Below are positions 192 to 17,656 of a stretch of DNA of 61,532 nt, piece after piece. The position numbers were made by a program, and so were the translations under genes. Every line of letters begins with the position of its first letter. Position 1 is the first letter of the stretch. The stretch comes from Clostridia bacterium (GTDB lineage: Bacteria > Bacillota > Clostridia > Oscillospirales > Acutalibacteraceae), in assembly GCA_017399175.1 (NCBI GenBank), contig JAFQEE010000029.1, positions 1 to 61,532 on the forward strand, read 5' to 3'. The notes below the pieces were generated by a model that was given only the letters and a program-made list of their open reading frames with translations, was not told the origin of the DNA and searched no databases.

Positions 192-422
192 TTATGAAAG
201 GAATCCCTGAACTGCACCCAATTCAACTGAAGTATATTTACAGTAGTAATCAATTGGAACATGCATTTCACAAGCTTCATTCATACCAAAAATTTTGTCT
301 GCATCGAATCCTTCACCGAGAATGTCGGCAATAAGCTCCATATCAACCTGCGCTAAGCAAGAACTTGGAGTACCAACAGAAGCTGCAGCAAATACGAGCG
401 TTGGTTTTAAATATTTTTTCAT
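192..422 (-). CDS. Candidate RiPP-like precursor peptide A (76 aa)
   Basis: A small protein of unknown family, last gene of the minus operon kinase - radical SAM - VWA protein - peptide, starting 15 nt after the VWA stop with an AAGGAG site. The N-terminus MKKYLKP carries a Tyr4-x-x-Pro7 motif like the one in lasso-peptide leaders that is held by PqqD-like domains. A short hydrophobic stretch (about 8-16) follows, then three cysteines (Cys22, Cys51, Cys61) in an acidic, aromatic body (MHVPIDYYCKY around 53-63). The last residues are GFLS, so the C-terminal residue is Ser. The role as substrate of the adjacent radical SAM enzyme and HprK-like kinase is inferred from position and from these features; no product is known. 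The hydrophobic N-terminus could instead be part of a signal peptide, though there is no good lipobox at Cys22. Confidence 0.65.
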   Translation of the reverse strand: MKKYLKPTLVFAAASVGTPSSCLAQVDMELIADILGEGFDADKIFGMNEACEMHVPIDYYCKYTSVELGAVQGFLS

Positions 423-437
423 ATTACCAAAATCTCC

Positions 438-3400
438 TTAAAATATTTTGAAAATAAAAGCAAAAAGGTTTTTGAAGAATGCAATGATTCTTGTGAAGAT
501 GTTGTCCACAATAACAGGAACTTCAACATCTGTGTTATCATTACCCGGTTCATCAACATCAGGCTGCTGTGTATCTCCGCCGGTTATAGCATTGTAGTTG
601 TATGAGTTAGGGTCAACTGTTCTTGGAGTCAATGAGAACGACCTTGCCATAACAGGTAAATCTTCACTTGTAACTACCTGCGCAGTTGCATCAACAAGCT
701 TAAGGTTATTAACACTGAGGAGACCTGTGCCATTATTTGTAATAATAACATTAGCCATACCTGTTGAAGCGTTAATAGTAAGATATGGAGTAATGTCAAA
801 ATACTGCTCAGTAGCTGTATTTATTGCAAACTCAATAGCCTCGTCACCTGAAGCAACCTTAGCTGTAGTAGCACCATCAACTGCACGAAGGCTAATCATA
901 ACTCTTGAATCAGCATTTGGTACAGCTACATTGAATGCTACAGCATGAGAATCATCACCGCCAGTTGCTGACTGTAAGTAAATCTCATTCTGAGGACCTA
1001 CTGACTGATAGTTGCCGAATGAAAGTGTAGGAATATTACCATCTTCATCAGCACTAAGCTCACCAACAACATATGCAAACAAGCCGTCGCCACCTGTAAT
1101 AACACCGTTTTCGCCTGAAGCAAGTTCATTAACTATGTTATAGTATTTAGCACCCTTTTCAGAGTTAATGTAAAGTGAAGAATCGTTACCAAGAGGATTG
1201 TAAATACGAATGCCGTCGATATAGCAGTCAAGTGCAACATCTGCAGCAGTTGCAGTTCCACGATTTGCTGAAGAATTATCAGCAACAGGACCTGTACCAC
1301 CGTTGAGAATTGAATTGTCGTTATACCAAACGAACTCAACCTCATTTAACGGCATATTGATACCCATATCTTTTAAGAGGTTCTGTGCTGTGTATGTCTT
1401 ATTGAACAGACTTGAACGACCGCCTGTAATACCCTGAGCATTTGAAAGGTAAGCTGCTGTAACTTCAACAGTGTAATCACCGTATCCGCCTTCATTTGTG
1501 TAGCTTACGATAGGAACCTGCTTGAGAAGAGCACCGTCATAGTTTTCAGTATCAACATAATATGTATCAACCATAAATACCTTTTCGATTGTACCGTCAG
1601 CTTTCTTGATGTTTACAAGCTGAACACCTGTGTTTGCACCGCAGACTGCCATAAGGTCGAAGCCTGTACCTGTATAGCTGAATGTCATTGTTTCGCTACG
1701 CTTTGTGCTTGAATTAACAGTTGCCTTTAATACAGTACCGTTAGAGTAACTGTCGCCATTATTTGCATAAGCTGAATCGTAACCGTAACGGTCGTTTTCA
1801 CCTGAAAGTGACTGACCACCGGTTGCAATAGTTGAACCCTCAGATTTCCAGTTGGATTTAGCGAGAGAACCTAATGAAGAAGCAGTAAATCTGTTTTCTT
1901 CGAAAAGTACGGTAGAAGCAGGAACAATATTGATTCTGAACCAGTCGTATGTTCCGTCATCACGCTTGATAAGACAGAATGAACGGTTTTCTTCGTTTGT
2001 ATATGAACCTGATACAAGCTCATAAGTCATATCAAGGTTACCGTTAACAAAGTTAAGTGCTACATTGTCTGTTTCGCGAGATGTCTTATATGTTGACTGT
2101 CTGTTAAGACCGCCGTCAACGGAGCAGAGTGTACCGTTGATATCCGAGTCATACATCGGTAAATCATAGTCGAGAACATAAGTGTATGTCGGGATATTAA
2201 AGTATTCTGTCGGGAAGTACTTGAAGGTATCGGCTGAGTTGTATTCACCCTCAGTCTGATAAATAGCTGTTGTAGATGCATTATTGATTGAAGTATTTGT
2301 AATGTCAGCCTCTTCGTCAGCAAGCACGCCTTCAATTCTAATCTGGAGCTTTCTACCTGACTTATTCTTTGAAATATATTCCTCAGAATAGTCATATCCG
2401 CTTACAGTCAATTTATGTGAGTTAGAAGCATCATAGCTTACTGAAAGTCCGGTAGCAGAACCGCTTACTGCTGAAGATTCATCGAATGCGAAGCGTTCAA
2501 CCTTATCATATGAACCCGGAACGAGCTTGTAGCTTACTTTAATACCGTCTGCAAGGTTACCGTTTTCATCAACGATACCCTTAAATGCAGTACTGAGTTC
2601 TTCACAAAGGATTGAGCTTGCATCAAGGTTTGCAAGACCTACAGCCTCGTTTTTAGCAAACTCACGACCAATAATCGGAGCAAAATCCATAAAGTTTTCA
2701 ACTGTAATATCTCCGAGGTTTGAGGTATATTTTGCACCGTCAATGTTTGAACCGCCTAAATCAGTTAAGCTTGTTGCTCCGGGATACTTTGAAGAAACTG
2801 CTTCCATATATTTGTGCTTGTCAAAGTTAGCTCCGTCTTCACCGACAATAATACTATATACGAATGCACCCTTGTTTTTAGCTTCAAGTGATTTTGCAAT
2901 AACATTATTTGCGGCAGTTGTTGTGTTTGATTTATCATCTGCACCGGGAACACCGTCTGACATAAAAATAATTACACAGTTTCTGTCACCGTCAGCAGTA
3001 TAATCAACACCTGAAGCATTGATAATGTTATCAGCAAATGCAAGCTCCATACCTGAATTATCAGTCTGTGCATCATTACTAACATCTGAAATATTAGCAA
3101 TCTGTGTTTTAAGATTTGAAGCATTTGCGCCTGCGTTCCAGAAAGCATCTGTAAAGCCTGATGATGACCATCCGTTTGTACCGAGGTAAGAAGCTGAAGC
3201 ACCGTAATATGTAATTGCAATTCTGTTATCGGAACCCTGTGCTGCAATCTCACCGACAAGCTCTGCTGCTTTTGCCTTGATTGTATCTATACGAGTTGTT
3301 ACATTCAGGTCACATACACCGCAGGTGTAAGTATAGTGCACACCTGTGTAAAGTGCAGCCTCACGACGGGTACCGTTATTTGTACTTGAAGAAATACCTG

Positions 3401-6014
3401 ATTGAGCAACTGCATTATCAACATTACTGTAGAACTGGTCTCTTGTTATCGGGTCGTGAACATAACTTGCTCCGGTACTGCTTTCGCCGGCTGACTGTAA
3501 AACATAATAAAGTCCGTCGTCAGCGACATAATAAGCCCAATAATACTGCTTGTTTGGATTGCCGAAATTGTTTAATGATAATGTGTTAACCGCAATATAA
3601 ACTCTATAATACTTACCGTCAGTGTGCAACATATATATCTGGTTATCAGGGTCTGAGAATGCATAACCGTTAACACCGGCTGAACCTGATGCCGGAGTTT
3701 TTGTATCATCTTCCTCGCACAATTCAGCGACATTTATTGAATCTGTTGCTGCCCACTGTCTGAGGGCTGTACCGTCGTATGTTCCGGATTTAGTAGTAGT
3801 ATTACAGTCAGTAGTCTCTGTATAAGCAACAGATTGAGACCTATCCATTACGATAATATAGTCTGTAGGTCTGTCGCCGACATACTGATAGTGGTTTGGA
3901 GAAATAGCATAGGTTTCAAGGTCAATTGTGTATGTACCGTCAGCCTGAAGCTCTGCCTTCATATCTGTGTAAACACGGCTTTCATAGGTTGAAGCAGTCT
4001 TATCAACAATACGCTTGTAAATGTTGAATATACCGTGTGCGTAGAAGCTTTCGGCACCTGTTATAACAGCACCGCCAAGGACATTTGAGCCTGACATATT
4101 CAAAGCATCTGTATGGAGGGTACCCGGCTGTTCGGTAACACCTGAGTACATAGGAATTGTGCTGTTTGCATAATAATTATTGTATGCGGTATTATAGCTT
4201 TCTGTTGTACCGTCATTACACCAGAGGAAATATGTTTCGTTGTTGGAAATCCAGAATCCGCCTTCACCGTCGCCTGATTCCTGAATTCTCATATTATTTC
4301 CGCGAACGGTATTTGTTGCCATTGAAATTGTTGAAGCGTCAAAATAGAGGTTAGGCTGATTAACGAAATAGTAATCAGGAGACTGCATGCTGTATGAACT
4401 TCCGCTAAGACTGTTAATCTCCCAACGAAGATTCTTTACATCATCCTTTTCGGCATTACCGAGATAAAGCTTACCGTCTTCAATTGAATACTGTGTAATA
4501 GGGTGAGCAATTGCACCTGTGTAACCTGAGCCTGCACCGATGCTGTTCTTAGAAAGTCTGAAGCCCTTATAACCGCCGTTAGCATCAATTGCGTAAAGGA
4601 TATTTTTCTGAGTAACAGGGTCCTTTACAGGTGATTCATAAACGATAAGATATTCTTCACCGTTCTCGATTTCAGAAAGGCTGTTTACCTTTTCATAATG
4701 AGTAGCCGGTGTATCTGCAACCTCAACTCTGTTTTCAAGTGCATAAGGGTTAATTTTCCAGATAACGTCAACAGGCTTTTCACAGTTACCGATAGAAGTC
4801 AAGCCACTGCTTTCATTCAAATACTTGTTGGAAGCACCCTCAAATGTACAGAAAATCAAGCCGTTAACAAAGCAAAGACCTTCTGACATCGGCATCATAT
4901 CGTAGGTTTCATATTCGCTTACCTTATGTGCCTTAATAGTCTTTTTTGTATTGTTATCTTCGCTTATACTGATTTCTATATCTATTGCAGGCTGTGCAGA
5001 AAGGTCAATATCTGCTGTGATAAGCTTACTTGTTGCGCCAAAGCCGAAGGAAACAGAGTTACCTGAACCTGAACCGTATGAGCAGCTAAGGTAAAGCTTA
5101 CCGTTGTCAACAACCGCATACTGAACATCTTTGATGTTATTATCAAGAGCTATGGCTTGCGATGGTGAACCCTTACAGTCAGCTGTTCCGTTTATAAGAT
5201 TATTCCACTCTTCCTGGGAGTTTGAGCCCTGAAGCTTATAACCGTAAACCATTGAGTTGTAGCCTGCTGTAGCAGGAACATTATAATCGGCTGCAGCTAT
5301 AGTAATACCTGCAAGGCTTGCGCCACGGTCATAGAAGTTACCCATCCAGAGATAACCCTGGTCATAGCAAACATAAGCTGTATATGCAGTTTTACTGCTG
5401 CTTGTTACAGAACCGGTTTCGGTGAATACAGCTTCACCTGCAAGCTGTATTTCCTTGTGTTCACCTGTTTCGATATCGTCAAGGGCAGAAAGTGGAGCAT
5501 AAGCAATTTTTCTGTCCTTATCACCGCATGAGTAGTAGATATTGTTCTCTGAAAAGGCAATACCGCCACCATGGTCAGTGTTTACAGTACCGTCAACATT
5601 AAGGAATGAGAACATTGCTACGAAATTACCTGTTTTTGCATCAAGACAGAACATCTTACTGGATTTTGGTGTTTCGTCATCACCTGCATTATAGTATGCG
5701 GTAACAACCATCCAGTCCTTTGCCGGGTAATATGATATACCCTGAACAACATAGTCCTCTGATGCAGCAAGACCGGGGATAACCATATCGGTAGCCTCAC
5801 CGGCGCCATTCAAATATTGGGCTGCGTAGTTGCCGTATGTTACATCACGGTTACTTGTAACAATTTGTGTCTGTGTAATTGTTTCACCATCACTTGTTGT
5901 AATAGCAGAAACATTAACCTTCATCATAGGAATAGCAATTGCTAATGTTCCCATAAGGATTGCCAATGAAAGCAACAACGACATAGCCTTTCTGAATATT
6001 TTGTTCTTTTTCAT
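438..6014 (-). CDS. Giant secreted von Willebrand factor A-domain protein
   Basis: About 1,858 aa from the start chosen here (GGAGG 8 nt before MKKNKIF; two upstream in-frame ATGs extend it by up to 5 residues). Residues 1 to about 37 are a Sec signal peptide. Roughly 40-440 looks like a beta-rich, possibly propeller-type region. A VWA domain begins near residue 715 with the metal-site motif D-R-S-Q-S near 721-725, and IIFMSDG near 1015 provides a further element. The remaining C-terminal half is beta-rich with many Asn, Gly and Ser. The protein ends in a strongly hydrophobic tail (IIAFFKNLFAFIFKIF) with no LPxTG. VWA proteins usually bind protein ligands through a bound metal, so a surface or adhesin-type role is likely. 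Its place between a radical SAM gene and the candidate peptide gene is the odd part; whether it is modified or carries the peptide is unknown. Confidence 0.8.
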   Translation of the reverse strand: MKKNKIFRKAMSLLLSLAILMGTLAIAIPMMKVNVSAITTSDGETITQTQIVTSNRDVTYGNYAAQYLNGAGEATDMVIPGLAASEDYVVQGISYYPAKDWMVVTAYYNAGDDETPKSSKMFCLDAKTGNFVAMFSFLNVDGTVNTDHGGGIAFSENNIYYSCGDKDRKIAYAPLSALDDIETGEHKEIQLAGEAVFTETGSVTSSSKTAYTAYVCYDQGYLWMGNFYDRGASLAGITIAAADYNVPATAGYNSMVYGYKLQGSNSQEEWNNLINGTADCKGSPSQAIALDNNIKDVQYAVVDNGKLYLSCSYGSGSGNSVSFGFGATSKLITADIDLSAQPAIDIEISISEDNNTKKTIKAHKVSEYETYDMMPMSEGLCFVNGLIFCTFEGASNKYLNESSGLTSIGNCEKPVDVIWKINPYALENRVEVADTPATHYEKVNSLSEIENGEEYLIVYESPVKDPVTQKNILYAIDANGGYKGFRLSKNSIGAGSGYTGAIAHPITQYSIEDGKLYLGNAEKDDVKNLRWEINSLSGSSYSMQSPDYYFVNQPNLYFDASTISMATNTVRGNNMRIQESGDGEGGFWISNNETYFLWCNDGTTESYNTAYNNYYANSTIPMYSGVTEQPGTLHTDALNMSGSNVLGGAVITGAESFYAHGIFNIYKRIVDKTASTYESRVYTDMKAELQADGTYTIDLETYAISPNHYQYVGDRPTDYIIVMDRSQSVAYTETTDCNTTTKSGTYDGTALRQWAATDSINVAELCEEDDTKTPASGSAGVNGYAFSDPDNQIYMLHTDGKYYRVYIAVNTLSLNNFGNPNKQYYWAYYVADDGLYYVLQSAGESSTGASYVHDPITRDQFYSNVDNAVAQSGISSSTNNGTRREAALYTGVHYTYTCGVCDLNVTTRIDTIKAKAAELVGEIAAQGSDNRIAITYYGASASYLGTNGWSSSGFTDAFWNAGANASNLKTQIANISDVSNDAQTDNSGMELAFADNIINASGVDYTADGDRNCVIIFMSDGVPGADDKSNTTTAANNVIAKSLEAKNKGAFVYSIIVGEDGANFDKHKYMEAVSSKYPGATSLTDLGGSNIDGAKYTSNLGDITVENFMDFAPIIGREFAKNEAVGLANLDASSILCEELSTAFKGIVDENGNLADGIKVSYKLVPGSYDKVERFAFDESSAVSGSATGLSVSYDASNSHKLTVSGYDYSEEYISKNKSGRKLQIRIEGVLADEEADITNTSINNASTTAIYQTEGEYNSADTFKYFPTEYFNIPTYTYVLDYDLPMYDSDINGTLCSVDGGLNRQSTYKTSRETDNVALNFVNGNLDMTYELVSGSYTNEENRSFCLIKRDDGTYDWFRINIVPASTVLFEENRFTASSLGSLAKSNWKSEGSTIATGGQSLSGENDRYGYDSAYANNGDSYSNGTVLKATVNSSTKRSETMTFSYTGTGFDLMAVCGANTGVQLVNIKKADGTIEKVFMVDTYYVDTENYDGALLKQVPIVSYTNEGGYGDYTVEVTAAYLSNAQGITGGRSSLFNKTYTAQNLLKDMGINMPLNEVEFVWYNDNSILNGGTGPVADNSSANRGTATAADVALDCYIDGIRIYNPLGNDSSLYINSEKGAKYYNIVNELASGENGVITGGDGLFAYVVGELSADEDGNIPTLSFGNYQSVGPQNEIYLQSATGGDDSHAVAFNVAVPNADSRVMISLRAVDGATTAKVASGDEAIEFAINTATEQYFDITPYLTINASTGMANVIITNNGTGLLSVNNLKLVDATAQVVTSEDLPVMARSFSLTPRTVDPNSYNYNAITGGDTQQPDVDEPGNDNTDVEVPVIVDNIFTRIIAFFKNLFAFIFKIF

Positions 6015-6081
6015 ATTCATTACCTCCATTTTTTCAAATGAAAATATTTAACAAATCCAATTTCTGAATTTGCTTAATTCC

Positions 6082-7179
6082 TTATTTTTGGCTTTTCGTA
6101 ACAAGATTTTGCACCTGTCTGTAATAAGCCCTCGCCTTTCGGCAAGCGTATTCGGGTACTTTTGAAAAATCCCCTGTTTCTGCAAGAGAAACTGCGGCAC
6201 AGATATCGCAATTTTTACGATACTCACAGTCCTTACATTCTCTCGGCATTTTTATTTCCTCACGAGCCCTGTTCATATACTCCCAGGCAGTGTTGAAATC
6301 CTCAATTTCCACAGACGGCTGTGTCATCATTCCGCAAGGTGTCATTTTCCCGTCATAGGTAACCCAAAATGAGCTTAACCCTGCTCTGCAGGAAATTCCT
6401 TCACATTCATCTGTCAAGAACTCTCTTCTACGGCTCTGCTCACCTTTTTTTCCTGATTTGACTATTTCAGCAAGTCTTTCTTCAGTAAGGCTTTGCAGTT
6501 TGTTTTCAAAATCAACCCTTGCAGCCTCCTCCGGACTCAACCTGAATGCCTCACCGCTTGCCCTTACAGGCTCAAAAATATAGGTGACGGTCTTCATTTC
6601 GATACCCAAGGCTCCTGCATATGCTCTTGCCTTGCTCAAGTCGTCCTTATTAAGCGGTGTTACTGTGTAATTAAACCGAATGTTCACACCGTTTTTTTTC
6701 AAGCCCTCAACAGCGTATTTAACCTTTTCATAAGCGCTACCATCTCCGCAAAGTTCTTCATAAGTCCTTTCGGAGCAACCATAGAGAGTTATATTCAATC
6801 TCTGTGGAGGATACACTCTGAAAAATTCTATATACTCATCGTCAATCAATGTGGCGTTGGTATTTATATTCAAGAGAAAGCCCATTTCACGAAGTTTAAG
6901 GTAAATCTCTTTAAAATCATTCCTGACAAGTGGCTCACCACCCGTCAGCAATAAATTCAGAGTACCTCTTTTTTTACATTCCTCCGCAAGGTTCAGCCAC
7001 CATTCGGTAGATTTTTCCTTACTTTGCGCCTCCTTATTGCAAATACCTTTATGTATGTAGCACATTTTACAATCAAGAGTGCATCTTGAGGTCAGCTCAA
7101 AGGTACCCGCAAGAGGAATTTTGCCCAAATCGGCTTTCATAAAAAGCTTATTTATAAATAAATTGTATGCGTTTTCCAT
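6082..7179 (-). CDS. Radical SAM/SPASM peptide-modifying enzyme, module 1
   Basis: 365 aa. The N-terminal region has the radical SAM cluster motif C-T-L-D-C-K-M-C (CxxxCxxC) after GTFELTSR, followed by the GGEP motif (LLTGGEPLVR) that binds SAM. The C-terminal part is a SPASM region, with CEGISC, then PCGM, then the spaced set C-x2-C-x5-C-x2-C (CKDCEYRKNCDIC) and a last Cys in EYAC, expected to hold auxiliary Fe-S clusters. Such enzymes form thioether or C-C crosslinks, or epimerise residues, in ribosomal peptides. The gene starts 12 nt after the HprK-like kinase gene. ATG at 7179 is preferred over an upstream TTG at 7185; neither has a strong ribosome site, suggesting translational coupling. 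The enzyme is about 40 per cent alike by eye in its key regions to the module-2 enzyme at 14.9 kb. The chemistry is not predictable from sequence alone. Confidence 0.88.
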   Translation of the reverse strand: MENAYNLFINKLFMKADLGKIPLAGTFELTSRCTLDCKMCYIHKGICNKEAQSKEKSTEWWLNLAEECKKRGTLNLLLTGGEPLVRNDFKEIYLKLREMGFLLNINTNATLIDDEYIEFFRVYPPQRLNITLYGCSERTYEELCGDGSAYEKVKYAVEGLKKNGVNIRFNYTVTPLNKDDLSKARAYAGALGIEMKTVTYIFEPVRASGEAFRLSPEEAARVDFENKLQSLTEERLAEIVKSGKKGEQSRRREFLTDECEGISCRAGLSSFWVTYDGKMTPCGMMTQPSVEIEDFNTAWEYMNRAREEIKMPRECKDCEYRKNCDICAAVSLAETGDFSKVPEYACRKARAYYRQVQNLVTKSQK

Positions 7180-7191
7180 AAACAATCACTG

Positions 7192-8037
7192 TTATTCGTT
7201 TTTCAATGCTAATTTCAAAGCCTTAACTGCCCGTTTATCAGGAGTACAATCAAGATGATAAACACCAACCGAACTGAGAATTCTGTTTATCAGCTCAACA
7301 CACCCCACAGGCACTCCGGGAGTCTGCATATCTATATATGTATTACCCAACACCGCCTGCAAGCCACTAATTCCCGTCAGCCTTGTGACAGTATTCTGTT
7401 TGCTTTGACCCAGTTCAACTATCGCTTTAAGTGGCAGAGTTTTATTCTCACATATTCCGCTTGTTCCGCAAAAAGGTACTCCGCAAGCATAAAACCTTCC
7501 GTCAATACAGCTGACTCCTGCTTTGTCACCGTTTATTACCGTTGCTCCTGCAAACTTTCGCCAAAGCTCCGCCTGAGTACTTTTACCTGTTCCGCACGGT
7601 GCAGTAAACAAGATTGCCTCACCATCAACCTCTATATAAGAAGCGTGCATCAATAGTGAATCGAGGAACAAAAGAGACTCGGCAAGACCGATTGTGCTCC
7701 ACATATAACGCTCATCCATAAGAGTTTTAAAGCTGCTTTCATCAAAGGTTATTTCTTTTTTTGAAAAATCATTCAGAGCAGTCTTTATAACCGCACCGTC
7801 AGCACAACCCATATATATGCGTTTATAAAGCACATTCTCAGCAATACAGTAATCACTTTGGTCTCTTTTTGACCATTCACCCTTTATTTCAGGTAATTTT
7901 TCGGAGATTTTGCACTCTGCAGTTATATCTGATTTCGCAGATTTTACAAGGAATTTTTCCCAATTCTCGGAATTTGCGGGAAAGAAAGGAGCGCTAATCC
8001 TTAATCCCCTTCCGCATATAGAATAATTCCGTAACAT
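7192..8037 (-). CDS. HprK-like P-loop kinase, module 1
   Basis: 281 aa. The centre has a Walker A loop A-P-C-G-T-G-K-S-T (about residues 150-158) followed by QAELWRKF, then NGDKAG and a conserved GVPFCGTSG segment. This is the layout of the HPr kinase/phosphorylase-related proteins found with PqqD-like proteins, which include the PadeK and ThcoK kinases that phosphorylate the C-terminal Ser of lasso peptides. It lacks the N-terminal domain of true HprK. The N-terminal half (1-145) is a divergent beta-rich region shared with the module-2 kinase. It is the first gene of the minus operon, with a GGGAG site 7 nt before ATG and a consensus promoter upstream. The peptide end of Ser76 in the last gene fits it as substrate, by inference. 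Confidence 0.8.
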   Translation of the reverse strand: MLRNYSICGRGLRISAPFFPANSENWEKFLVKSAKSDITAECKISEKLPEIKGEWSKRDQSDYCIAENVLYKRIYMGCADGAVIKTALNDFSKKEITFDESSFKTLMDERYMWSTIGLAESLLFLDSLLMHASYIEVDGEAILFTAPCGTGKSTQAELWRKFAGATVINGDKAGVSCIDGRFYACGVPFCGTSGICENKTLPLKAIVELGQSKQNTVTRLTGISGLQAVLGNTYIDMQTPGVPVGCVELINRILSSVGVYHLDCTPDKRAVKALKLALKNE

Positions 8038-8195: not shown

Positions 8196-8471
8196 ATGAC
8201 CAACGAAACCTTTAAAATTAAGTCAGGATATGTTTTGAGAGAAATTGAGGGTGAATTTTTGGCAATTCCTTTTGCACCCGAGCTTAATTCGGCAAATATT
8301 ATTATTCTCAACCCTGTAAGCGGACTCATTTGGGAAAAGCTTCAGGCCGAATGCACACTCTCGCAGCTTGTTAAGGCAGTTACCGAGAACTTTTCAATTG
8401 ATGCTGTAACTGCACAAGGTGATATTGAGGAATTTCTGCAAACACTCAAGGAAAATGATATGCTTGAATAA
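8196..8471 (+). CDS. PqqD-like peptide-recognition protein, module 1
   Basis: 91 aa. The start is ATG with AAAGGTG upstream; a GTG 9 nt earlier lies inside that ribosome site and is rejected. The fold signature of PqqD/RRE proteins is visible: N-terminal strands (FKIKSGYVLREIEGEFLAIP), then NPVSGLIWEKL, then a helical C-terminus with FSID...DIEEFLQTLKENDML. PqqD-like domains bind leader peptides and present them to modifying enzymes. It faces away from the kinase - radical SAM - VWA - peptide operon but shares its intergenic region, so it most likely serves peptide A. Its close relative at 14.58 kb serves module 2. Confidence 0.85.
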   Translation: MTNETFKIKSGYVLREIEGEFLAIPFAPELNSANIIILNPVSGLIWEKLQAECTLSQLVKAVTENFSIDAVTAQGDIEEFLQTLKENDMLE

Positions 8472-9788: not shown

Positions 9789-9795
9789 GAAGGTA

Positions 9796-11202
9796 ATGGA
9801 AGAGAAAATCGTATTTTACTCGGACGAGTTGCATATTCCGATAATTCTGAAAGATATTCTTTTAAACATATGGGTAGTGATTTTAGCAACAGCAACCGTT
9901 TGTATGGGCATATTCACATATGAAAATATCGTATATAAACCACAGTATACATCTGAAGCAACCTTTGTTGTGTCACCGCGCAGTAACGGTTCATATGTTA
10001 GCTTTTATGCATCCTTAAACACTGCAAGTGAAATGGCAGAAATTTTTAGCGAAGTTTTCACCAGCGATGTGTTAAAGAGAACAATTCGTGAAGACCTCAA
10101 TGAGCCGGGTTTGGCTTTTACAGTAAACGCTAGTGTAGCAGAAGGCACTAATATTCTTTGTGTGAGCGTAGTGGCTGACTCTCCGGGAAAAGCACATTCT
10201 GTAATGCTGTCATTGATGAATAATTACGGTGAGGTTTCTGAATATCTTTTTGGTGGTGTGGTATTGGACACCCTGAAGGCACCTCAAGTTGTTACAGCAC
10301 CTATTAATCCGCCAAATATAACCAGAACACTTGTTTTGGGCGGATGTGCTGCTGCATTTGCCACAATATTAATGATTAGCTTTCTTTCATTAATGAGAAA
10401 AACTGTCAAGACACGCGATTGTGCAAAGCGTCGTCTGGGCGAATCTCCTTTAGGTGTTTTACCAAGAGTTAAAAAGAGTAAAATTATTCTAAACAAGAAA
10501 AGATTCAATAAGGCTCCCCTTCTCATAACCAATATGGCTACAGGTTTTCGTTATGCAGAAGCAATGTTGCAGGTGTCACATAAAATCTTTCACAAAATGC
10601 GCAAAAACAATCACAACGTGCTATTAATAACCAGTTGTGCGGAAAATGAAGGAAAATCCACCATCGCCTCTAACCTTGCGTTATATATGAAAAAGCACGG
10701 TCATCGTGTTGCTTTGGTTGATTTTGACTTACGACACCCTTCAATACAAGCCATTTTTTCCGAACAATCGGATATGCACAATATGTACGATATATACGAC
10801 TGTTTGAATAACGGAATACCTGCCGAATTAGGTACCGGTGACAAAAATTTAGAAGTTATTTATTGCAGTAAGCCTTTCCGACATCCTGACAGATTTTTAA
10901 CCAGCGAAGATGCACGAACATTCATTTCAGAATTACAAAAAAAGGTGGATTACATTATTTTAGACAGTTCTCCGTTCACTGTCGCAGCAGACACGGGTAT
11001 GATTCTGCAGTATGCAGATTCAGTTGTTATGGTAGTCCGTCAAGATTGGGTTCCTTATAATATTCTTCGTGATGTTGCAGAAGAACTTGATGCGGAGCAT
11101 GCTGAATATATGGGATATGTTCTCAATAATTATCGCCACAGCCACACTTCACACCTTCTGCAATTATTTGAAAAATCTGATAGCAAAAAAGGAGATAAAT
11201 GA
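9796..11202 (+). CDS. Wzz/CpsC-CpsD fusion 1: BY-kinase without a tyrosine tail
   Basis: About 468 aa. A Wzz-type chain-length region comes first (transmembrane segments near 19-40 and 175-197), followed by a bacterial tyrosine kinase domain with Walker A E-N-E-G-K-S-T, the A' motif LVDFDLRHPS and Walker B YIILDSS. The C-terminus (HSHTSHLLQLFEKSDSKKGDK) has no tyrosine cluster, which is normally the autophosphorylation site. ATG at 9796 is chosen because GAGAAGG lies just before it; a TTG at 9778 is in frame but has no ribosome site. It overlaps the next kinase gene by ATGA. BY-kinases control polymer export and length and phosphorylate partners; this one may act on the Tyr tail of the next gene product, by inference. 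Confidence 0.82.
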   Translation: MEEKIVFYSDELHIPIILKDILLNIWVVILATATVCMGIFTYENIVYKPQYTSEATFVVSPRSNGSYVSFYASLNTASEMAEIFSEVFTSDVLKRTIREDLNEPGLAFTVNASVAEGTNILCVSVVADSPGKAHSVMLSLMNNYGEVSEYLFGGVVLDTLKAPQVVTAPINPPNITRTLVLGGCAAAFATILMISFLSLMRKTVKTRDCAKRRLGESPLGVLPRVKKSKIILNKKRFNKAPLLITNMATGFRYAEAMLQVSHKIFHKMRKNNHNVLLITSCAENEGKSTIASNLALYMKKHGHRVALVDFDLRHPSIQAIFSEQSDMHNMYDIYDCLNNGIPAELGTGDKNLEVIYCSKPFRHPDRFLTSEDARTFISELQKKVDYIILDSSPFTVAADTGMILQYADSVVMVVRQDWVPYNILRDVAEELDAEHAEYMGYVLNNYRHSHTSHLLQLFEKSDSKKGDK

Positions 11203-12746
11203 TGAGCGATACCACCCCTCATAAAGAAGCGTCAAATGTTTTAAATGTCAGTGCTATTATACAAAACACTTTAGCAGTTTTTAAACGTATGTGGTGGCTT
11301 GCGATTGTGTTAACCTTAATCTTTGGTATATCCCTCCCCCTGATAAGCAAAGCCGGATACACGCCTGTTTACAGGGCTTATTGTTCTTTTTCGGTTAAAG
11401 TAATAAACAATTCCAATGCAGGTGATTTAAATTCTCTTCACGGAATATATTATGATAAAGATTTAGCAGAACAGCTAGAAAAAACTTTTACTTACATTTT
11501 GGGTAGTGACCTTCTTACAGACAAGGTAAGGGAGGAAATCGACACACAAGTTGCTGCAAACAACATTGTTGCCAGCTGTATTCCCGGTTCAAACCTTTTT
11601 GAATTAAGTACATATGCATCTACTCCTGAAGAAGCAGGCAAACTTTTAAATGCAGTTATGTCAATTTTTGAAGAAACTGCCCGTTATGTTATTGGTGACC
11701 TTGATGTAGACATGGTAGAAGAAGCCGTAATTGTAAACACTCCCAATGGTGCGCCGAATTTAATAAAGGATGCAATTATCGGTGCCGGAATGGGGCTTGT
11801 ACTCAGTGCAGGCATATTTGTGCTCCTGTCATTTTTTCATAATACTGTACAAAAGCCGGGAGATTTGGAAAAATACCTTAATATGCCTTGGCTTGGTGTG
11901 GTTCCCGTTACAGATATAAAAAAGCATAATAATGACGATGTCGGCATCACACACAGAGAGAGCGAGTTTCGTGAAAATATACACGGTATCGCCCGCAAGC
12001 TTGATGATATAATGAAAAAGGATGGGTTAAAGGTATTTTTAGTTACAAGTACTGCACCTTCAGAAGGTAAGTCCACTATCAGTCTTGCTTTGGCAGAGGC
12101 ATTTGAAAGTTGGGGTAAAAAAACAGTAATTATTGACGGTGACCTGCGTAATCCTACACTTTACCGTCGTGTCGGATTAAAGAAAAAGACACTTCCTCTT
12201 GAAAAGGCAATTAAAGGTGAGGTGCCTATAGAAGATGTTATGTTCAAGGTCACCAAAAACGAGCTTTGTCTTGTAGGTAACAGTATTCCGGTAAAACAGC
12301 CCACTGTACTCATCAACTCAAATGAGATGAGAAACTTTGTTAATAATTTAAGTATGTCGGTTGATTGTATTTTTATTGATACACCCCCATGTGAAGCCAT
12401 GTCCGATGTGGCCTTATATCAAGAATATGCAGACGGCATCATTTATGTGGTTCGTCAGGATTACGCTCCCATTAAGAGCATTATAAATGCTGTAGAGAGT
12501 CTTGGACAGATTGACAGCAAAATTTTAGGATATATTCTCAACGGGGTAAAACAGACTGCTGAGGGCTATGGAAAATACGGATACGGAAAATATAGCCACG
12601 GTAAATATGGCTATGGTTATTACGGTCAATACGGCAGTTACGGCAAATACGGTTATGACAGATATAGCAAGTATGGCAAATTTGCTTACAGACATTACGA
12701 TAAATCGCAAAATGCGGATTATGAGGACATAAATAACAATGAATAA
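11199..12746 (+). CDS. Wzz/CpsC-CpsD fusion 2: BY-kinase with a long Tyr-rich tail
   Basis: 515 aa. Transmembrane segments near 32-52 and 187-210 flank a Wzz-like extracellular loop. The kinase domain has Walker A S-E-G-K-S-T, A' motif VIIDGDLRNPT and Walker B CIFIDTPP. The last 60 residues are a low-complexity tail of Lys/Gly-Tyr-Gly units (GYGKYGYGKY and so on) with 17 tyrosines, the expected autophosphorylation cluster, but longer than usual. The ATG overlaps the stop of kinase 1 (ATGA), and an alternative ATG is the next codon. Its own stop overlaps the ABC exporter start by 8 nt, so the three are translationally coupled. Membrane protein; role in regulating export of a polymer or, in this setting, of a modified peptide is inferred. 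Confidence 0.85.
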   Translation: MMSDTTPHKEASNVLNVSAIIQNTLAVFKRMWWLAIVLTLIFGISLPLISKAGYTPVYRAYCSFSVKVINNSNAGDLNSLHGIYYDKDLAEQLEKTFTYILGSDLLTDKVREEIDTQVAANNIVASCIPGSNLFELSTYASTPEEAGKLLNAVMSIFEETARYVIGDLDVDMVEEAVIVNTPNGAPNLIKDAIIGAGMGLVLSAGIFVLLSFFHNTVQKPGDLEKYLNMPWLGVVPVTDIKKHNNDDVGITHRESEFRENIHGIARKLDDIMKKDGLKVFLVTSTAPSEGKSTISLALAEAFESWGKKTVIIDGDLRNPTLYRRVGLKKKTLPLEKAIKGEVPIEDVMFKVTKNELCLVGNSIPVKQPTVLINSNEMRNFVNNLSMSVDCIFIDTPPCEAMSDVALYQEYADGIIYVVRQDYAPIKSIINAVESLGQIDSKILGYILNGVKQTAEGYGKYGYGKYSHGKYGYGYYGQYGSYGKYGYDRYSKYGKFAYRHYDKSQNADYEDINNNE

Positions 12747-14490
12747 GTTGATTCAAAAGATAAAAAACGGTACTGTTGCAGAGATTGCTAAAGAGCTGAA
12801 ATGGATTTTTCAACTTAGTAAGAAATACACCTGGGCAATAGTTTGGTATGTTCTTTTAGGACTGTTAGGCATAGGTGCAACTTTATGTTCAAGTGTTATC
12901 AGTAAGAACATCATCGATATCGTTACCGGACACCAGGAAGGCTTGATTTTATTGGCTGCGGGAACATATATTGCCATGCAGTTAGCTAAAATTGTATTGA
13001 ATGCTATTACCGGAAATATCAACACAAGAGTGCAGCTTAAGGTTAATCAACAAATACGCGCAGATATTTTTGGAAAAATAATGAATGCCTGTTGGGAACC
13101 GGTCATGGGCTTCCATTCCGGTGACCTGCTCACCCGCTCGGGACGTGATGCAGATACTGTAGCTTCAAGCATTTTAGGTTGGGTTCCCACATTTGTCGTA
13201 AACCTTATTCAGTTTGTAGGTACATTTTTACTGATAATGTATTATGACTACACCTTGGCATTGATTGCTTTAGCGAGTGCACCAATTACTCTTTTCACTT
13301 CTGCATTTTTGACGAAAAAAATGCGTAAGCATAATGAAAGAATGCGCGTTATCGCCTCAGATATGACATCTTTTCATGCAGAAGCTTTTAATAATGTACA
13401 ATCCATTAAAAGTTTCGGCGTTGTTGATGCATACAGCAAGAAGCTGAACGAAATACAGCAGCAACAAAAAGATGCTGTTCTTGAACATAATAAATTTTCA
13501 ATTCTCACATCATCTTTTTTGAGTACCGTAGCAGTAATCATTACCGCCATCACATACTTCTTTTGTGTTTTTCGCTTGTGGAAAGGACATATTACCTATG
13601 GTGAGATGACAATGTTTTTACACCTTTCAGCGGTGCTGTCAGGAGCATTCAGTGCTTTAGTGGGCCTTGTGCCAACAACCATAAGTGCTGCCACAGCAGC
13701 CGGACGAGTAATGGCTTTGACAGAATTACCTGCTGAGGACTGTGAACCTCTCGCAGAGGTTAATCAAACGCTCAGCAGTGGCAGTTGCTCGGTTCATATT
13801 CATGCCGAGGATATGGAATTCTCATATGTATCAGGAAACACCGTTTTTAAGCATGCTGAAATGGAAGCTGAGCCCGGTCAGATAGTTGCTTTAGTTGGTG
13901 AATCGGGTGGCGGAAAAACCACTATGCTCAGAATACTGTTGGGAATTGTTGAAGTGAAAAAAGGAAAAGTGTATGTTTGTGACACCAAAAATAATACGGT
14001 AATGTCTGTTTCACCTGCTACAAGACGGTTATTCTCATATGTACCTCAAGGTAACACACTGTTTTCAGGAACCATAGCAGAAAACCTTCGCATTATGAAA
14101 CCTGACGCCACTGACGCAGAATTGGAAGAAGTTCTACGTACTGCTTATGCTCTTGATTTCATAAACGAACTGCCCCAAGGTATGTATACCTATCTCGGTG
14201 AAAGAGGCGGTGGGCTATCAGAAGGTCAGGTGCAACGAATTTCGATTGCAAGAGCCCTGCTGAACAATGCACCCATACTTCTTTTTGATGAAGCAACTAG
14301 TGCGTTGGATGTAAAAACAGAAAAAGCCCTTCTTCGCAATATATCCGAATTTCGCGGAGAGCGCACCTGTATTGTTACCACTCATCGTCCTTCAGTACTC
14401 ACTGCTTGTCATCGAGTATACCGTATCAGCGACGAGAGCATAAAACTACTCAACCAAAAAGAAATTCAAGAATTTATAATGGACAGTTAA
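12739..14490 (+). CDS. ABC exporter, fused membrane and ATPase domains
   Basis: 583 aa. Six transmembrane helices lie in the first 320 residues and an ATPase domain in the last 220, with Walker A G-E-S-G-G-G-K-T-T (about 391-399), signature L-S-E-G-Q-V-Q-R and Walker B ILLFDEATSALD. This is the MsbA/lipid- and peptide-exporter architecture. There is no N-terminal C39 peptidase domain, so any leader removal would need another enzyme; the S24/S26-type protein at 17.2 kb is a candidate. It overlaps the upstream kinase gene by 8 nt and precedes the PqqD-like gene, which has its own promoter. It likely functions as a homodimer exporting the module-2 product. Confidence 0.88.
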   Translation: MNKLIQKIKNGTVAEIAKELKWIFQLSKKYTWAIVWYVLLGLLGIGATLCSSVISKNIIDIVTGHQEGLILLAAGTYIAMQLAKIVLNAITGNINTRVQLKVNQQIRADIFGKIMNACWEPVMGFHSGDLLTRSGRDADTVASSILGWVPTFVVNLIQFVGTFLLIMYYDYTLALIALASAPITLFTSAFLTKKMRKHNERMRVIASDMTSFHAEAFNNVQSIKSFGVVDAYSKKLNEIQQQQKDAVLEHNKFSILTSSFLSTVAVIITAITYFFCVFRLWKGHITYGEMTMFLHLSAVLSGAFSALVGLVPTTISAATAAGRVMALTELPAEDCEPLAEVNQTLSSGSCSVHIHAEDMEFSYVSGNTVFKHAEMEAEPGQIVALVGESGGGKTTMLRILLGIVEVKKGKVYVCDTKNNTVMSVSPATRRLFSYVPQGNTLFSGTIAENLRIMKPDATDAELEEVLRTAYALDFINELPQGMYTYLGERGGGLSEGQVQRISIARALLNNAPILLFDEATSALDVKTEKALLRNISEFRGERTCIVTTHRPSVLTACHRVYRISDESIKLLNQKEIQEFIMDS

Positions 14491-14533
14491 TACACTTTTT
14501 CGACATTTTATGTGTTAAACATCGGGTTAATAC

Positions 14534-14562
14534 TTGAATTCTTCTTTTATATATGTTATTTT
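14534..14562 (+). promoter_or_regulatory. Internal promoter ahead of the module-2 peptide genes
   Basis: TTGAAT, 17 nt, TATTTT in the 90-nt gap between the exporter and the PqqD-like gene. It would allow the peptide genes to be expressed apart from the kinases. Confidence 0.5.
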
Positions 14563-14580
14563 ATAAGGTAGGGAATTAGG

Positions 14581-14871
14581 ATGAATTTTTCAGATAAACT
14601 TTTTCGTGCAAAAAGCGGATTTATACACCGAAAAGTAGCAAATGAAGATGTTCTTATTTCCGTCGGTTCAGGTATTGCTAATTTTAACGGCTATATTTTA
14701 CTTAATCCTACTGCTTCTTTCTTGTGGGATATGTTAAAAGAACCACGTAGCATACAAGAACTCGGCGAAGCTGTCGCTGAAGAGTTTGAAGTATCGCTTG
14801 CAGAGGCAAAAGCTGATGTAACCGAATTTATACATATGCTTAGCGATAAAGGAATGGTGGAGGAGGAATAG
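14581..14871 (+). CDS. PqqD-like peptide-recognition protein, module 2
   Basis: 96 aa, same plan as the protein at 8.2 kb: FRAKSGFIHRKVANEDVLISVG strands, NPTASFLWDML, then a helical half with FEVS...DVTEFIHMLSDKGMVEE. PqqD-like (RRE) domains capture the leader of a precursor peptide. It is directly upstream of the radical SAM gene, whose start lies 2 nt after this stop, and 1.1 kb before peptide B. The AGGAGG that serves the radical SAM start is inside the last codons of this gene. Confidence 0.87.
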   Translation: MNFSDKLFRAKSGFIHRKVANEDVLISVGSGIANFNGYILLNPTASFLWDMLKEPRSIQELGEAVAEEFEVSLAEAKADVTEFIHMLSDKGMVEEE

Positions 14872-14873
14872 AT

Positions 14874-15944
14874 TTGATAACTCTTGATTCTATGCCCCCT
14901 CGTTATCCTATAAACGGTACTTTCGAATTAACATTACGATGTAATTTGCACTGTAAAATGTGTATGTTTCGCAGAAAGGACAGCGAAAATACCATCCTTG
15001 AACATGAAGAACTGAACACGCAACAATGGATTGATATGGCGCGTCAAGTGGCAAATGCCGGAACAATCAACCTGCTTATTACCGGTGGCGAGCCTATGCT
15101 CAGAAAAGATTTTTGCGAAATATATCGCGGCATATACGAGCAAGGCTTTATCATCACACTATATACCAATGCAACAATGATTACAGAAAAGGTCATGCAG
15201 ACCTTACGGGAATTTCCTCCTCACCGTATCGGTATAACGCTGTATGGTGCAAACAATGATTCCTACAAAAAGGTTTGCGGTGTAGCGAACGGTTTTGACC
15301 GAGCCATTGAAGGTATTAAACAGCTTCGCACCCTGCCTTCAGTTATTGAATACCGAATGACGCTTATTAAAGATAATGTTGAAGATTTAGATGCAATTTG
15401 CCATTTGATTGAAGGCTTTGGTGAATGTGTGACAAACACTCTCATCGTATTTTCTCCTGTCAGAGGCGGTTGTATGCCTGTTCAGGAGTGTCGTCTTTCT
15501 GCTGAAGATTCGGTAAACTTATCAATTGGTCGTACCGTATCGAAAATTGAAGAAATGATTCCCGACTCCCTTAAAGATAAAGTTCGCATTAGAGTGAGTG
15601 AAAAATCTCACGAATGTAACACAACCGAAGAAAAGATGACTTTGTTGGGTTGTGATGCAGGTATGGACAGCTACACCATAACATTTGACGGAAAGCTTAT
15701 TGGTTGTCAGATGCTGGGAGTATTTTACACCGATACTATCAAAGAAGGTTTTTCTGTTGCTTGGGAAAACTACCCCTTTGAAGTGCATTTGCCGGATGAA
15801 CCGGAAGAATGCGTCAAATGTGAATACAAAAATCTTTGTAAAGTATGTCCGGCTGTAAGAATGGCCGAATGCGGCAGTTTAAACGGAGTGCCGAAGTATA
15901 TTTGTGATTTTTCAAAAGCAATGAAAAAAGGCGTTGAAGGTTGA
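14874..15944 (+). CDS. Radical SAM/SPASM peptide-modifying enzyme, module 2
   Basis: 356 aa from a TTG start. TTG is preferred because AGGAGG sits 7 nt upstream, while the first ATG (14892) is too far away. The cluster motif is C-N-L-H-C-K-M-C after GTFELTLR, followed by LLITGGEPMLR. The C-terminus has the SPASM set with LLGCDAG, LIGCQM and C-x2-C-x5-C-x2-C (CVKCEYKNLCKVC), then a final Cys in KYIC. It is the paralogue of the module-1 enzyme. The peptide B gene begins 1 nt after its stop, so the enzyme and peptide are tightly coupled. The predicted chemistry is crosslinking or other radical modification of peptide B; the exact reaction is unknown. Confidence 0.9.
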   Translation: MITLDSMPPRYPINGTFELTLRCNLHCKMCMFRRKDSENTILEHEELNTQQWIDMARQVANAGTINLLITGGEPMLRKDFCEIYRGIYEQGFIITLYTNATMITEKVMQTLREFPPHRIGITLYGANNDSYKKVCGVANGFDRAIEGIKQLRTLPSVIEYRMTLIKDNVEDLDAICHLIEGFGECVTNTLIVFSPVRGGCMPVQECRLSAEDSVNLSIGRTVSKIEEMIPDSLKDKVRIRVSEKSHECNTTEEKMTLLGCDAGMDSYTITFDGKLIGCQMLGVFYTDTIKEGFSVAWENYPFEVHLPDEPEECVKCEYKNLCKVCPAVRMAECGSLNGVPKYICDFSKAMKKGVEG

Positions 15945-15945
15945 G

Positions 15946-16290
15946 ATGAAGAAAACTTACGAAAAACCGAATATGCGACCTGTTCCTATCGTATCCGGGC
16001 AGGCTGTTGCCGATATATGCTGGGCATATGCTAAAAATGGTAAGAATTTTTACTACAATGTTCCCGGCCGTGGTTATGCTATACTTCAAATTACAAGCAG
16101 CAGGGGTTGTGACGGCGGTACTTTATTTGATATTGACTATTCAGAAGCAAACTTAACACCTGGAGAGATAGCTTCGTTTGATGCATATATGGAAAAAATC
16201 ATTGCCCAAGCAAAAGCTACCGCAGGAAACAGTGCCGAACCTTTTAAAGGCTCGCCTTTCTCGTCTTCAGTTGACCCTTCCTGGAGTTAA
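15946..16290 (+). CDS. Candidate RiPP-like precursor peptide B (114 aa)
   Basis: A small protein of unknown family between the radical SAM gene and the HprK-like kinase gene. ATG at 15946 follows GAAGG; an in-frame TTG at 15934 lies inside the previous gene and is rejected. The N-terminus MKKTYEKP has Tyr5-x-x-Pro8, the same pattern as peptide A (YLKP). Only two cysteines are present (Cys25 in DICWAY and Cys55 in RGCDGG), with aromatic and Gly-rich parts near 35-45. The tail is Ser- and Pro-rich (PFKGSPFSSSVDPSWS), ending in Ser114. A middle helical segment (about 70-92) is acidic and Ala-rich. It has no transmembrane segment. The precursor role is inferred from position and from the shared YxxP start and Ser end. 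Confidence 0.7.
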   Translation: MKKTYEKPNMRPVPIVSGQAVADICWAYAKNGKNFYYNVPGRGYAILQITSSRGCDGGTLFDIDYSEANLTPGEIASFDAYMEKIIAQAKATAGNSAEPFKGSPFSSSVDPSWS

Positions 16291-16292
16291 AT

Positions 16293-17162
16293 ATGAAAAA
16301 GTTTTATAAAATCGGTCCCGTAACGCTTTTGTTACGCGACTTTCCGTTCAATAATATATATCCCTTTGCACTATGGAAAGCAGATGCATATACCGTAGCG
16401 CAAACCGAACCTGATATTACCATAAGTTATACGCCCGGCATCATTAACCCTAGTGGAAAATGTGTAAAAACCGAGCGTTCTCTTTATATTGTACGCCGAA
16501 CCTTTGCTTTGCCGGATGGCAGTATGCTGTGGCAACAGGAAGATACAGAGAATGGTGAGGTAAGCTTGCAGTTTATTGTAGATGCCAAGGGTGAAAATGT
16601 GCACCTCACGGTTGACAAAAGCGAAAGCTATGGTATGGCTGCATTTGAAAGTCTTACCTTTATCGTTTTTTATCTTTTATTACACCGAGGGGTTATTACT
16701 TTTCATGGAGTACTTATGGAGTATTCCTCAAAAGGCTTTATTATTTCTGCTCCTTCAGAAGAAGGAAAAACTACACATGCAAGACTGTGGCGTGATAACA
16801 AAAACGCCTTGATACTTAATTCTGACCGCAGCTCATGCTATAAAGAAAATGGTAATTGGATAGGCTTTGGCACTCCTTGGTGTGGCACGGGTGGAGAAAA
16901 CATTAACCGCAGTGTACCGTTAAAGGCATTGGTAATTCTCAAAAGAGGTAACGAAAACCGTGCTTGCCTTATTGAAAATCGTGAGATATTGGCACAAGTG
17001 TTACCACATGTTATGTATCCTGACTGGAACGAGGAACTGACTGACTGTGCGTTGTCTTTGTTGGACGAATTTTTACAACAGATACCCATTATATCGTTAG
17101 AGTGTACTCCTTGCACAGACGCAGTAGATACGCTATACGATTGTCTGGAGAGATTAATATGA
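16293..17162 (+). CDS. HprK-like P-loop kinase, module 2
   Basis: 289 aa. The Walker A loop A-P-S-E-E-G-K-T-T (about 151-159) is preceded by HGVLMEYSSKGFIIS and followed by HARLW, then SDRSS and FGTPWCGTGGE, parallel to the module-1 kinase (GVPFCGTSG). This matches the HprK-related kinase family tied to PqqD-like proteins. The N-terminal 140 residues are the family-specific beta-rich part. It starts 2 nt after the peptide B stop and overlaps the peptidase gene by ATGA. A Ser-kinase role on the C-terminal serine or Ser cluster of peptide B is an inference from the lasso-peptide kinases. Confidence 0.82.
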   Translation: MKKFYKIGPVTLLLRDFPFNNIYPFALWKADAYTVAQTEPDITISYTPGIINPSGKCVKTERSLYIVRRTFALPDGSMLWQQEDTENGEVSLQFIVDAKGENVHLTVDKSESYGMAAFESLTFIVFYLLLHRGVITFHGVLMEYSSKGFIISAPSEEGKTTHARLWRDNKNALILNSDRSSCYKENGNWIGFGTPWCGTGGENINRSVPLKALVILKRGNENRACLIENREILAQVLPHVMYPDWNEELTDCALSLLDEFLQQIPIISLECTPCTDAVDTLYDCLERLI

Positions 17163-17656
17163 AGCACACAGATATGACTCAATTGCCGGCTTCTGATTTT
17201 TTTGGTGCAGTAGAAAATATGCTGTCTGACGGTTATGATGTAGAGTTTACTGTTACCGGCAACAGTATGTGGCCTGTTCTAAGACACGGAAGAGACCGTG
17301 TAATCATTTCTTCATATGGCGACAAAAAAATCCAACCCGGTGATACAGTTTTATATTGTCCTATTCGTGAAAAGTACCTTCTTCACCGCATAATGTTCGT
17401 AAAAAACGGCAATTTCCGTGCAGCAGGCGACAACAACTGCTTTTATGACGGTAATTTTTCTACTGATTGCATCGTCGGTAGAGTAACTACCTATATTCGC
17501 AAAGAAAAGAAATACTCCGCGGATAGTTTTGCTATGCGAACATGGAGTTTTTGTTGGAGAGTTTTGTTCCCTATACGAAAAACATTGTTATGGCTTCTTC
17601 GTAAAAGAGTGAACAAAAACTTAACAACTGATGTTAAAAAGATAAATGACAAATAG
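17159..17656 (+). CDS. S24/S26-type peptidase-like protein
   Basis: 165 aa. The sequence G-N-S-M-W-P near residue 38 fits the catalytic Ser motif (GxSMxP) of LexA-like/signal peptidase-like S24/S26 enzymes, and HRIMFV with AAGDNN near 75-92 fits the later part of the fold. No clear Lys of the usual dyad could be assigned. A hydrophobic segment and basic tail near the C-terminus (SFCWRVLFPIRKTLLWLLRKR) suggest membrane association. Its ATG overlaps the HprK-like stop. It is the last gene before the terminator. In this context it may cut the leader from peptide B or from an exported protein; this is inferred. An alternative start at 17102 would add 19 residues from a different frame of the kinase gene and is rejected. 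Confidence 0.72.
   Translation: MKHTDMTQLPASDFFGAVENMLSDGYDVEFTVTGNSMWPVLRHGRDRVIISSYGDKKIQPGDTVLYCPIREKYLLHRIMFVKNGNFRAAGDNNCFYDGNFSTDCIVGRVTTYIRKEKKYSADSFAMRTWSFCWRVLFPIRKTLLWLLRKRVNKNLTTDVKKINDK

Follow-up and report, generated by a model that had tools for sequence, protein, structure and literature searches.

Two Gene Modules of a Clostridia Bacterium Pair a Radical SAM Enzyme and an HprK-like Kinase with a Peptide Ending in Serine

Lasso peptides of the paeninodin type are defined by a lasso cyclase and a B2 peptidase. The HprK-like kinases of these systems, such as PadeK, ThcoK and PsmK, phosphorylate the C-terminal Ser of the precursor (PMC10368454), and WxxP is reported to be typical of the leaders of Bacillota lasso peptides (PMC13381572). 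HprK-like kinases were tied to linear ribosomally synthesized and post-translationally modified peptides (RiPPs) only recently with LPP, whose gene sets encode a RiPP recognition element (RRE), an HprK-like kinase, an archaeal-type signal peptidase, a nucleoside triphosphate (NTP) transferase and an MsbA-like transporter and are often found in capsule loci (Popov et al., 2026, PMC13381572). LppK phosphorylates S3 of the core (PMC13381572), BsfK acts on Ser3 (PMC10368454), and NTP_transf_5 is a partner of the kinases of both phosphorylated lasso peptides and LPP (PMC13381572). Here we describe two peptide-modification modules, A and B, on contig JAFQEE010000029.1 of the Clostridia bacterium assembly GCA_017399175.1, whose whole length of 61,532 nucleotides is referred to as the window.

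As the original prediction held, each module consists of genes for a PqqD-like RRE, a radical S-adenosylmethionine (SAM)/SPASM enzyme, an HprK-like kinase and a peptide with a YxxP leader and a C-terminal Ser (Table 1). Both RREs pass the cut-off of PF05402, and the leader stretches are YLKPTLVFAAASVGTPSS in peptide A and YEKPNMRPVPIVSGQ in peptide B. In the radical SAM enzyme, cysteines C21, C25 and C28 of the CxxxCxxC motif and C252, C270, C303, C306, C312, C315 and C334 of the SPASM region are invariant (18/18 for both; numbering from the translation of 6082-7143). Enzymes A and B match 68 and 82 NCBIfam models, respectively; none of the 25 best shown for each enzyme reaches its cut-off, so that no known type of maturase is indicated. 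Both kinases have the HPr kinase/phosphoenolpyruvate carboxykinase (PEPCK) superfamily fold, with PEPCK as the best fold match, and contain Walker A and the conserved His. An ordinary HPr kinase of sugar control was ruled out by the weak similarity, the adjoining peptide genes and an altered Asp pair. The lasso cyclase family PF00733 is found at four places in the same genome (contigs C55, C68, C39 and C36) and is absent from the window contig (C25), which agrees with the predicted lack of a cyclase; the lasso peptide reading was ruled out for this reason. No NTP transferase was detected in positions 1-22000 of the window with a profile seeded by three PF14907 proteins. The S26-like peptidase and the MsbA-like transporter of module B are assigned by similarity, both under curated cut-offs, and no S26 gene of its own was found for module A within the annotated stretch. 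This genome contains a third such module, with a class II peptide (see below) and a giant protein, on contig C53 (locus L035).

The gene set, its co-location and its conservation are established here, and on this basis we propose, with a probability of about 0.6, that both modules are RiPP maturation systems in which an RRE-held peptide is modified by the radical SAM enzyme and phosphorylated at its last Ser by the HprK-like kinase. By analogy to published RREs, the PqqD-like protein would hold the YxxP leader. The enzyme family and the conserved Cys suggest that the radical SAM/SPASM enzyme may alter the Cys-containing core, most likely by forming a thioether or another Cys-linked bond. The kinase would then phosphorylate the C-terminal Ser hydroxyl as the lasso kinases do, to which the invariance of this residue beside the kinase points. 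Leader removal by an S26 or another peptidase and export by an ABC transporter would follow; in module B, as in LPP, these steps may be carried out by the S26 peptidase and the MsbA-like transporter. At some loci, a nucleotidyltransferase would add to the phosphate.

The nearest published kinds are LPP and phosphorylated lasso peptides. A discrete PqqD-like RRE together with an HprK-like kinase, the YxxP leader, the lack of a macrolactam cyclase and the polysaccharide-locus setting are shared with LPP as described in the available passages of PMC13381572, and module B also has candidates, by similarity under curated cut-offs, for the MsbA-like transporter and the archaeal-type signal peptidase. 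LPP differ by the NTP transferase, the S3 core phosphate, variable C-termini and the leader motif YxxPxVLxHQxIxFETxxS, which neither peptide A nor peptide B matches when compared by eye, and the LPP paper makes no mention of radical SAM (0 mentions). The RRE, the [YW]xxP leader, the HprK-like kinase and a precursor with a C-terminal Ser, which is the acceptor in the lasso system, are shared with the paeninodin type, for which no radical SAM enzyme is described in the passages of PMC10368454; in addition to their radical SAM enzymes and the cyclase-free contig, the modules differ in that kinases A and B contain GD and SD, respectively, instead of the DD of the lasso-type loci seen here. The modules share parts with both kinds, yet lack a defining feature of each, the leader motif and NTP transferase of LPP and the cyclase of lasso peptides. 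The SynChlorMet cassette comprises the HprK-like ScmC, the PqqD-like ScmD and a pair of radical SAM/SPASM proteins, ScmE and ScmF. The module proteins match its NCBIfam profiles weakly, falling far short of the curated cut-offs of ScmC (22/125 and 19.5/125 bits), ScmD (31/100 and 22/100 bits) and ScmE (76/400 and 91/400 bits). Sactipeptides and ranthipeptides are similar in that a radical SAM enzyme with SPASM cysteines is encoded beside a Cys-containing precursor and differ in their maturases, the models of which are not reached at cut-off among the 25 best shown; to our knowledge, a kinase and a terminal Ser are no part of these classes. The modules are best described as a new radical SAM branch among the phosphorylated RiPPs, on condition that the phosphate proves real.

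Relatives of the modules are found across many Clostridia, with Anaerostipes butyraticus (L115) and Clostridium celatum (L098) as examples of cultured carriers. A family survey covered 150 genomes of the window's family, 72 of which contain a relative of kinase B, with 40 stretches fetched first, and further surveys were class- and phylum-wide, including 291 genomes. In the 150 family genomes and the window's own genome, a kinase is encoded on the same contig, within about 3 kb, for 27 of the 28 close relatives of the radical SAM enzyme (E ≤ 2.5e-107), a figure for which two hit lists were matched by hand and to which the own genome contributes three of the 28. Class-wide, 13 of the 14 close relatives, again with three from the own genome, have a kinase nearby. 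The gene set recurs, which supports the original prediction. Ten weaker matches (E 3.5e-81 to 1.2e-32) show mixed linkage, with a kinase within a few kb in G073 and for two matches of G102, about 8 kb away for one of G146, and none in the stretch read for six (G146, G123, G008, G088, G106 and G121). The kinase alone is much commoner than the pairing with a radical SAM enzyme (91/291 genomes). At L096, an NGD kinase and a Ser-ending class II peptide are found in a 19.8-kb locus without a radical SAM gene, which was either lost or is elsewhere in the genome. L238 contains three adjoining HprK-like systems, each with its own peptide: a lasso type with cyclase, B2 and NTP transferase, a radical SAM type and an LPP-like one.

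The terminal Ser was followed in a main scan of one genome per species with the pattern GK[ST]TQAxLW, in which the best 80 of at least 588 confirmed stretches were used; because the pattern favors NGD kinases, the counts describe the NGD branch rather than all HprK-like kinases. Peptides were chosen by a [YWF]xxP start, a ribosome site and position, and the terminal residue was not a criterion. Automatic choice yielded a candidate at 58 of the 81 radical SAM-linked kinases, and Ser is the last residue in 53 of these candidates, as compared with 81 of 1211 other genes in the comparison set. For the 23 kinases left without a peptide, some were supplied by hand and others remain without, and the spurious candidates picked at L039 and L115 were removed or manually exchanged ahead of the curated counts, in which one end was counted per kinase at loci with several peptides (L326, L327, L328 and L048). 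In the kinase A clade (Shimodaira-Hasegawa-like approximate likelihood ratio test, SH-aLRT, support 87), 62 of 65 peptides end in Ser. The exceptions are L042, which is interrupted by a frame break and scored as lacking Ser although another frame there ends in NVFQS, L051, a 45-aa short form ending in G, and L097, which ends in FGSY.

The residue is kept in all four peptide classes: 17/17 in class I (YCK[FY]TS...FxS), 25/25 in class II (CYHVP-like...FxS), 7/7 in class III (WxxP leader, 134-160 aa) and 2/2 in class IV (peptide B and that of L036). Among 59 Ser-ending peptides, the last codon is TCA in 22, TCC in 15, TCT in 10, TCG in 7, AGC in 4 and AGT in 1; the use of all six Ser codons indicates that the residue itself is kept, across several core types. 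As raw counts, the stop codons of the same peptides are TAA (43), TGA (16) and TAG (0). Overall Ser richness was ruled out as the cause of the terminal Ser, as Ser accounts for 5-10% elsewhere in the peptides. A class II profile built without the last eight residues and run on the 291 genomes found three loci outside the own genome, all with Ser-ending peptides (L155, FGGS; L156 and L157, ELQS), and the last two each encode a full module, arranged as RRE, radical SAM enzyme, peptide, kinase and S26; a class III profile gave no match in the same genomes. Precursors resembling class III, with long cores and a leader motif containing W (or F), are found at L107, L132, L137, L143, L149, L152, L058, L053 and L146 and end in KS, RS, PS or HS.

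In HPr kinase, D178 is the catalytic base. Residues 170-171 of kinase A, by our own count from the chain, align with D178-D179 of Lactobacillus casei HprK, and the first Asp is replaced by Gly in kinase A and by Ser in kinase B, while the second is retained in both. With Gly in place of the first Asp, the usual base is therefore missing. For eight of the 51 kinases first marked as free of a radical SAM gene, a six-frame check revealed one within 4 kb that the gene caller had missed (two of the eight, at L238 and L240, being second kinases of a locus), and L188, L198-L202, L206, L231, L247, L255 and L330 were still kinase-free when read in six frames. The older marking, with 92 linked and 51 other kinases, underlies the counts of His131, Walker motif and Asp171, giant proteins, 10-kb neighbors and NTP_transf_5 and the first hand-curated peptide counts; by this marking, Gly170 was found in 86/92 linked kinases vs. 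15/51 others, and His131 and GK[ST]T are kept in 92/92 linked kinases and Asp171 in 90/92. On the tree, Gly170 changes its state 4 times vs. about 37 times in shuffles. In the hand-curated set, the peptide ends in Ser for 69 of 77 Gly170 kinases and 8 of 19 other kinases (Fisher 3e-5, uncorrected for kinship). Because the acceptor of the lasso kinases is a C-terminal Ser and the kinases of the lasso-type loci seen here keep the Asp pair, loss of the Asp is not needed for a C-terminal acceptor.

Several observations weigh against the proposed phosphorylation of the last Ser. After the six-frame check, the position of the first Asp is occupied by Gly in 91/100 radical SAM-linked kinases vs. 10/43 others, and the link between Gly170 and the terminal Ser rests on only three to four independent switches, too few for a pairwise test. 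Peptides at distant loci with a radical SAM enzyme and a kinase end otherwise (L067 P, L197 V, L239 T, L240 K, L263 A, L324 T, L325 R, L326 K/K/V and L327 N/I); among them are those of the NDD-type kinases (L263 and L325-L327) and of the DGD-type kinases (L239, L240 and L324), and the distant loci L328 and L329 have Ser-ending peptides. Even NGD kinases can be accompanied by other ends (L044 G, L048 P, L097 Y and the short form of L051). The exception among the close radical SAM relatives, L188, has a peptide ending in FFKS, lacks a kinase in the surrounding 9 kb or so and carries one elsewhere in its genome, and two kinase-free radical SAM peptides that belong to other families (L200 and L202) also end in Ser; since the others end in Gly (L198, L199 and L206), R (L247), A (L255) and C (L231), this small control set is mixed. 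Finally, in the published relatives LppK and BsfK the residue acted on is S3, close to where the core begins, according to the available passages (PMC13381572; PMC10368454). The predicted conservation of the terminal Ser among homologues thus stands for the kinase A clade and has its limits as a general rule; likewise, the gene set and the near-invariant Ser of the main clade speak for the predicted RiPP class with a radical enzyme and a C-terminal Ser kinase, and the NDD- and DGD-type loci speak against it as a rule.

The S3 precedent leads to the best surviving alternative, in which the peptides are RiPPs with a radical modification, the kinase hits an internal Ser/Thr and the terminal Ser is kept for some other purpose, recognition by a peptidase, an exporter or a surface partner being an example. 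The kinase-linked peptides without a terminal Ser, the retention of this Ser at L188 and the Ser found elsewhere in the peptides all fit this explanation, which is nevertheless unlikely: the alignments of classes I and II contain no invariant or nearly invariant internal Ser/Thr column, and the last Ser is invariant in both.

PEPCK acts on a carboxylate-containing substrate. Its standing as the best fold match and the prevalence of Gly at the D178 position are consistent with a kinase-like protein that activates the C-terminal carboxylate or acts as a nucleotide-driven chaperone, the lost Asp reflecting a changed chemistry. We regard this as improbable, because the Walker lysine, His131 and Asp171 are kept as given above, a carboxylate acceptor would have no particular need of Ser, and NTP_transf_5, found within 6 kb of 20/92 radical SAM-linked kinases, fits a phosphate that serves as a handle.

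Radical SAM/SPASM proteins include the anaerobic sulfatase-maturing enzymes, which oxidize Ser or Cys. Despite this precedent, it is very improbable that the radical SAM/SPASM enzyme acts on the terminal Ser, for instance by oxidizing it as in sulfatases, and that the kinase has another target, as NCBIfam indicates no known maturase type among the 25 best models shown, the lasso-type L210 and L219 end in Ser with no radical SAM gene in their 3.2-kb loci, and the lasso-type peptide of L238 also ends in Ser, its radical SAM enzyme belonging to the adjoining module. All three of these HprK-containing lasso-type loci have a B2-type protease, and a cyclase is seen in L238. More broadly, 12 kinases without a radical SAM gene in the stretch read have a peptide. 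Six of these peptides end in Ser (L210, L219 and, beside NGD kinases, L096, L104, L112 and L113, of which L104, L112 and L113 are close to a contig end); the final residues of the other six are Y, P, Y, Y, D and D.

Phosphorylation of the last Ser of a radical SAM-modified peptide remains the preferred reading. A far more specific version of it, which we consider a long shot, is a separate Clostridia RiPP class in which a Cys-crosslinked peptide is phosphorylated at its C-terminal Ser by an Asp-deficient kinase, the carboxylate of the peptide replacing the Asp, the phosphate providing an attachment point for a sugar or surface polymer and the product being incorporated into the giant protein encoded just upstream or displayed along with it. 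A carboxylate standing in for the Asp would explain why the acceptor is the very last residue. The association of a branch of this kinase superfamily with one radical SAM subfamily and one end residue in many uncultured gut Clostridia offers a rule for genome mining, namely a radical SAM/SPASM enzyme, an NGD kinase and a YxxP...FxS peptide, frequently accompanied by an RRE, and it allows kinase specificity to be tested cleanly at a single residue.

The S26 peptidase, the giant protein and the exopolysaccharide (EPS)-type genes present at the locus were absent from the original prediction. At radical SAM loci, 38 of 53 Ser-ending peptides are encoded directly behind a protein of at least 700 aa, mostly with a gap of 0-28 bp. 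Judged by eye, many of these giant proteins begin with a signal-like segment and close with a hydrophobic or amphipathic tail, and many contain a linker rich in Pro, Asp and Glu. Among the four scanned, those of L035, L040 and L072 contain PA14, Big_2 and GH88 plus Big_2 domains, respectively, and that of the window has no Pfam match, a von Willebrand factor A (vWA)-like DxSxS stretch being noticed by eye only. Because peptide A would be produced along with a giant protein that is probably secreted, the product of module A is probably surface-acting, and the products of classes I and II probably work with the giant protein at the cell surface. Together with the polysaccharide genes, the giant proteins make a surface role of phosphorylated RiPPs testable.

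Table 1. Coordinates of the modules and associated features; positions are those of the window unless another locus is named.
Feature	Position	Strand	Description
Peptide A gene	192..422	-	76 aa; YLKP leader; 3 Cys; C-terminal GFLS; class I; AGGAG upstream
Giant protein gene	438..6014	-	1858 aa; signal-like N-terminus; hydrophobic C-terminal tail; 16 bp upstream of peptide A
Radical SAM/SPASM enzyme A gene	6082..7179	-	PF04055, E 6.5e-23; SPASM Cys invariant
HprK-like kinase A gene	7192..8037	-	Motif NGD
PqqD-like RRE A gene	8196..8471	+	Divergent; PF05402, E 3.3e-13
Surface Ig-like protein	8970..9788	+	Membrane-anchored; recurring neighbor; PF16403
Wzz/BY-kinase-like protein 1	9796..11202	+	EPS-type; PF02706, PF13614
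BY-kinase-like protein 2	11199..12746	+	EPS-type; PF13614
MsbA-like ABC transporter	12739..14490	+	Candidate exporter; NCBIfam CydD/MsbA models, E 2e-77 to 2e-76, under their cut-offs
PqqD-like RRE B gene	14581..14871	+	PF05402, E 1.1e-17
Radical SAM/SPASM enzyme B gene	14874..15944	+	PF04055, E 1.5e-23
Peptide B gene	15946..16290	+	114 aa; YEKP leader; C-terminal PSWS; class IV
HprK-like kinase B gene	16293..17162	+	Motif NSD
Archaeal-type signal peptidase I-like (S26) protein	17159..17656	+	Candidate leader peptidase; TIGR02228, E 1.3e-10, under cut-off
Giant protein, L035	3611-8722		Pfam scan
Giant protein, L040	1554-8720		Pfam scan
Giant protein, L072	11469-18431		Pfam scan
Protein between peptide and kinase, L035	9046-9804		Member of the 27-protein family
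Peptide, L188	10390-10665	-	C-terminal FFKS
NGD kinase and class II peptide, L096	9343-10516	+	Peptide ending in Ser

Within 10 kb of the 92 radical SAM-linked kinases, PqqD is found near 45, S26 near 27, ABC near 35 and EPS-type genes near 31, contig ends cutting some loci. Many class II loci contain a gene for a membrane-anchored or lipoprotein-like protein between those for the peptide and the kinase, and 27 of the 35 genes at this place are related to each other. Three members of this family were scanned and had no Pfam match, and AlphaFold2 (AF2) predicts one N-terminal helix and a beta-sandwich for the family.

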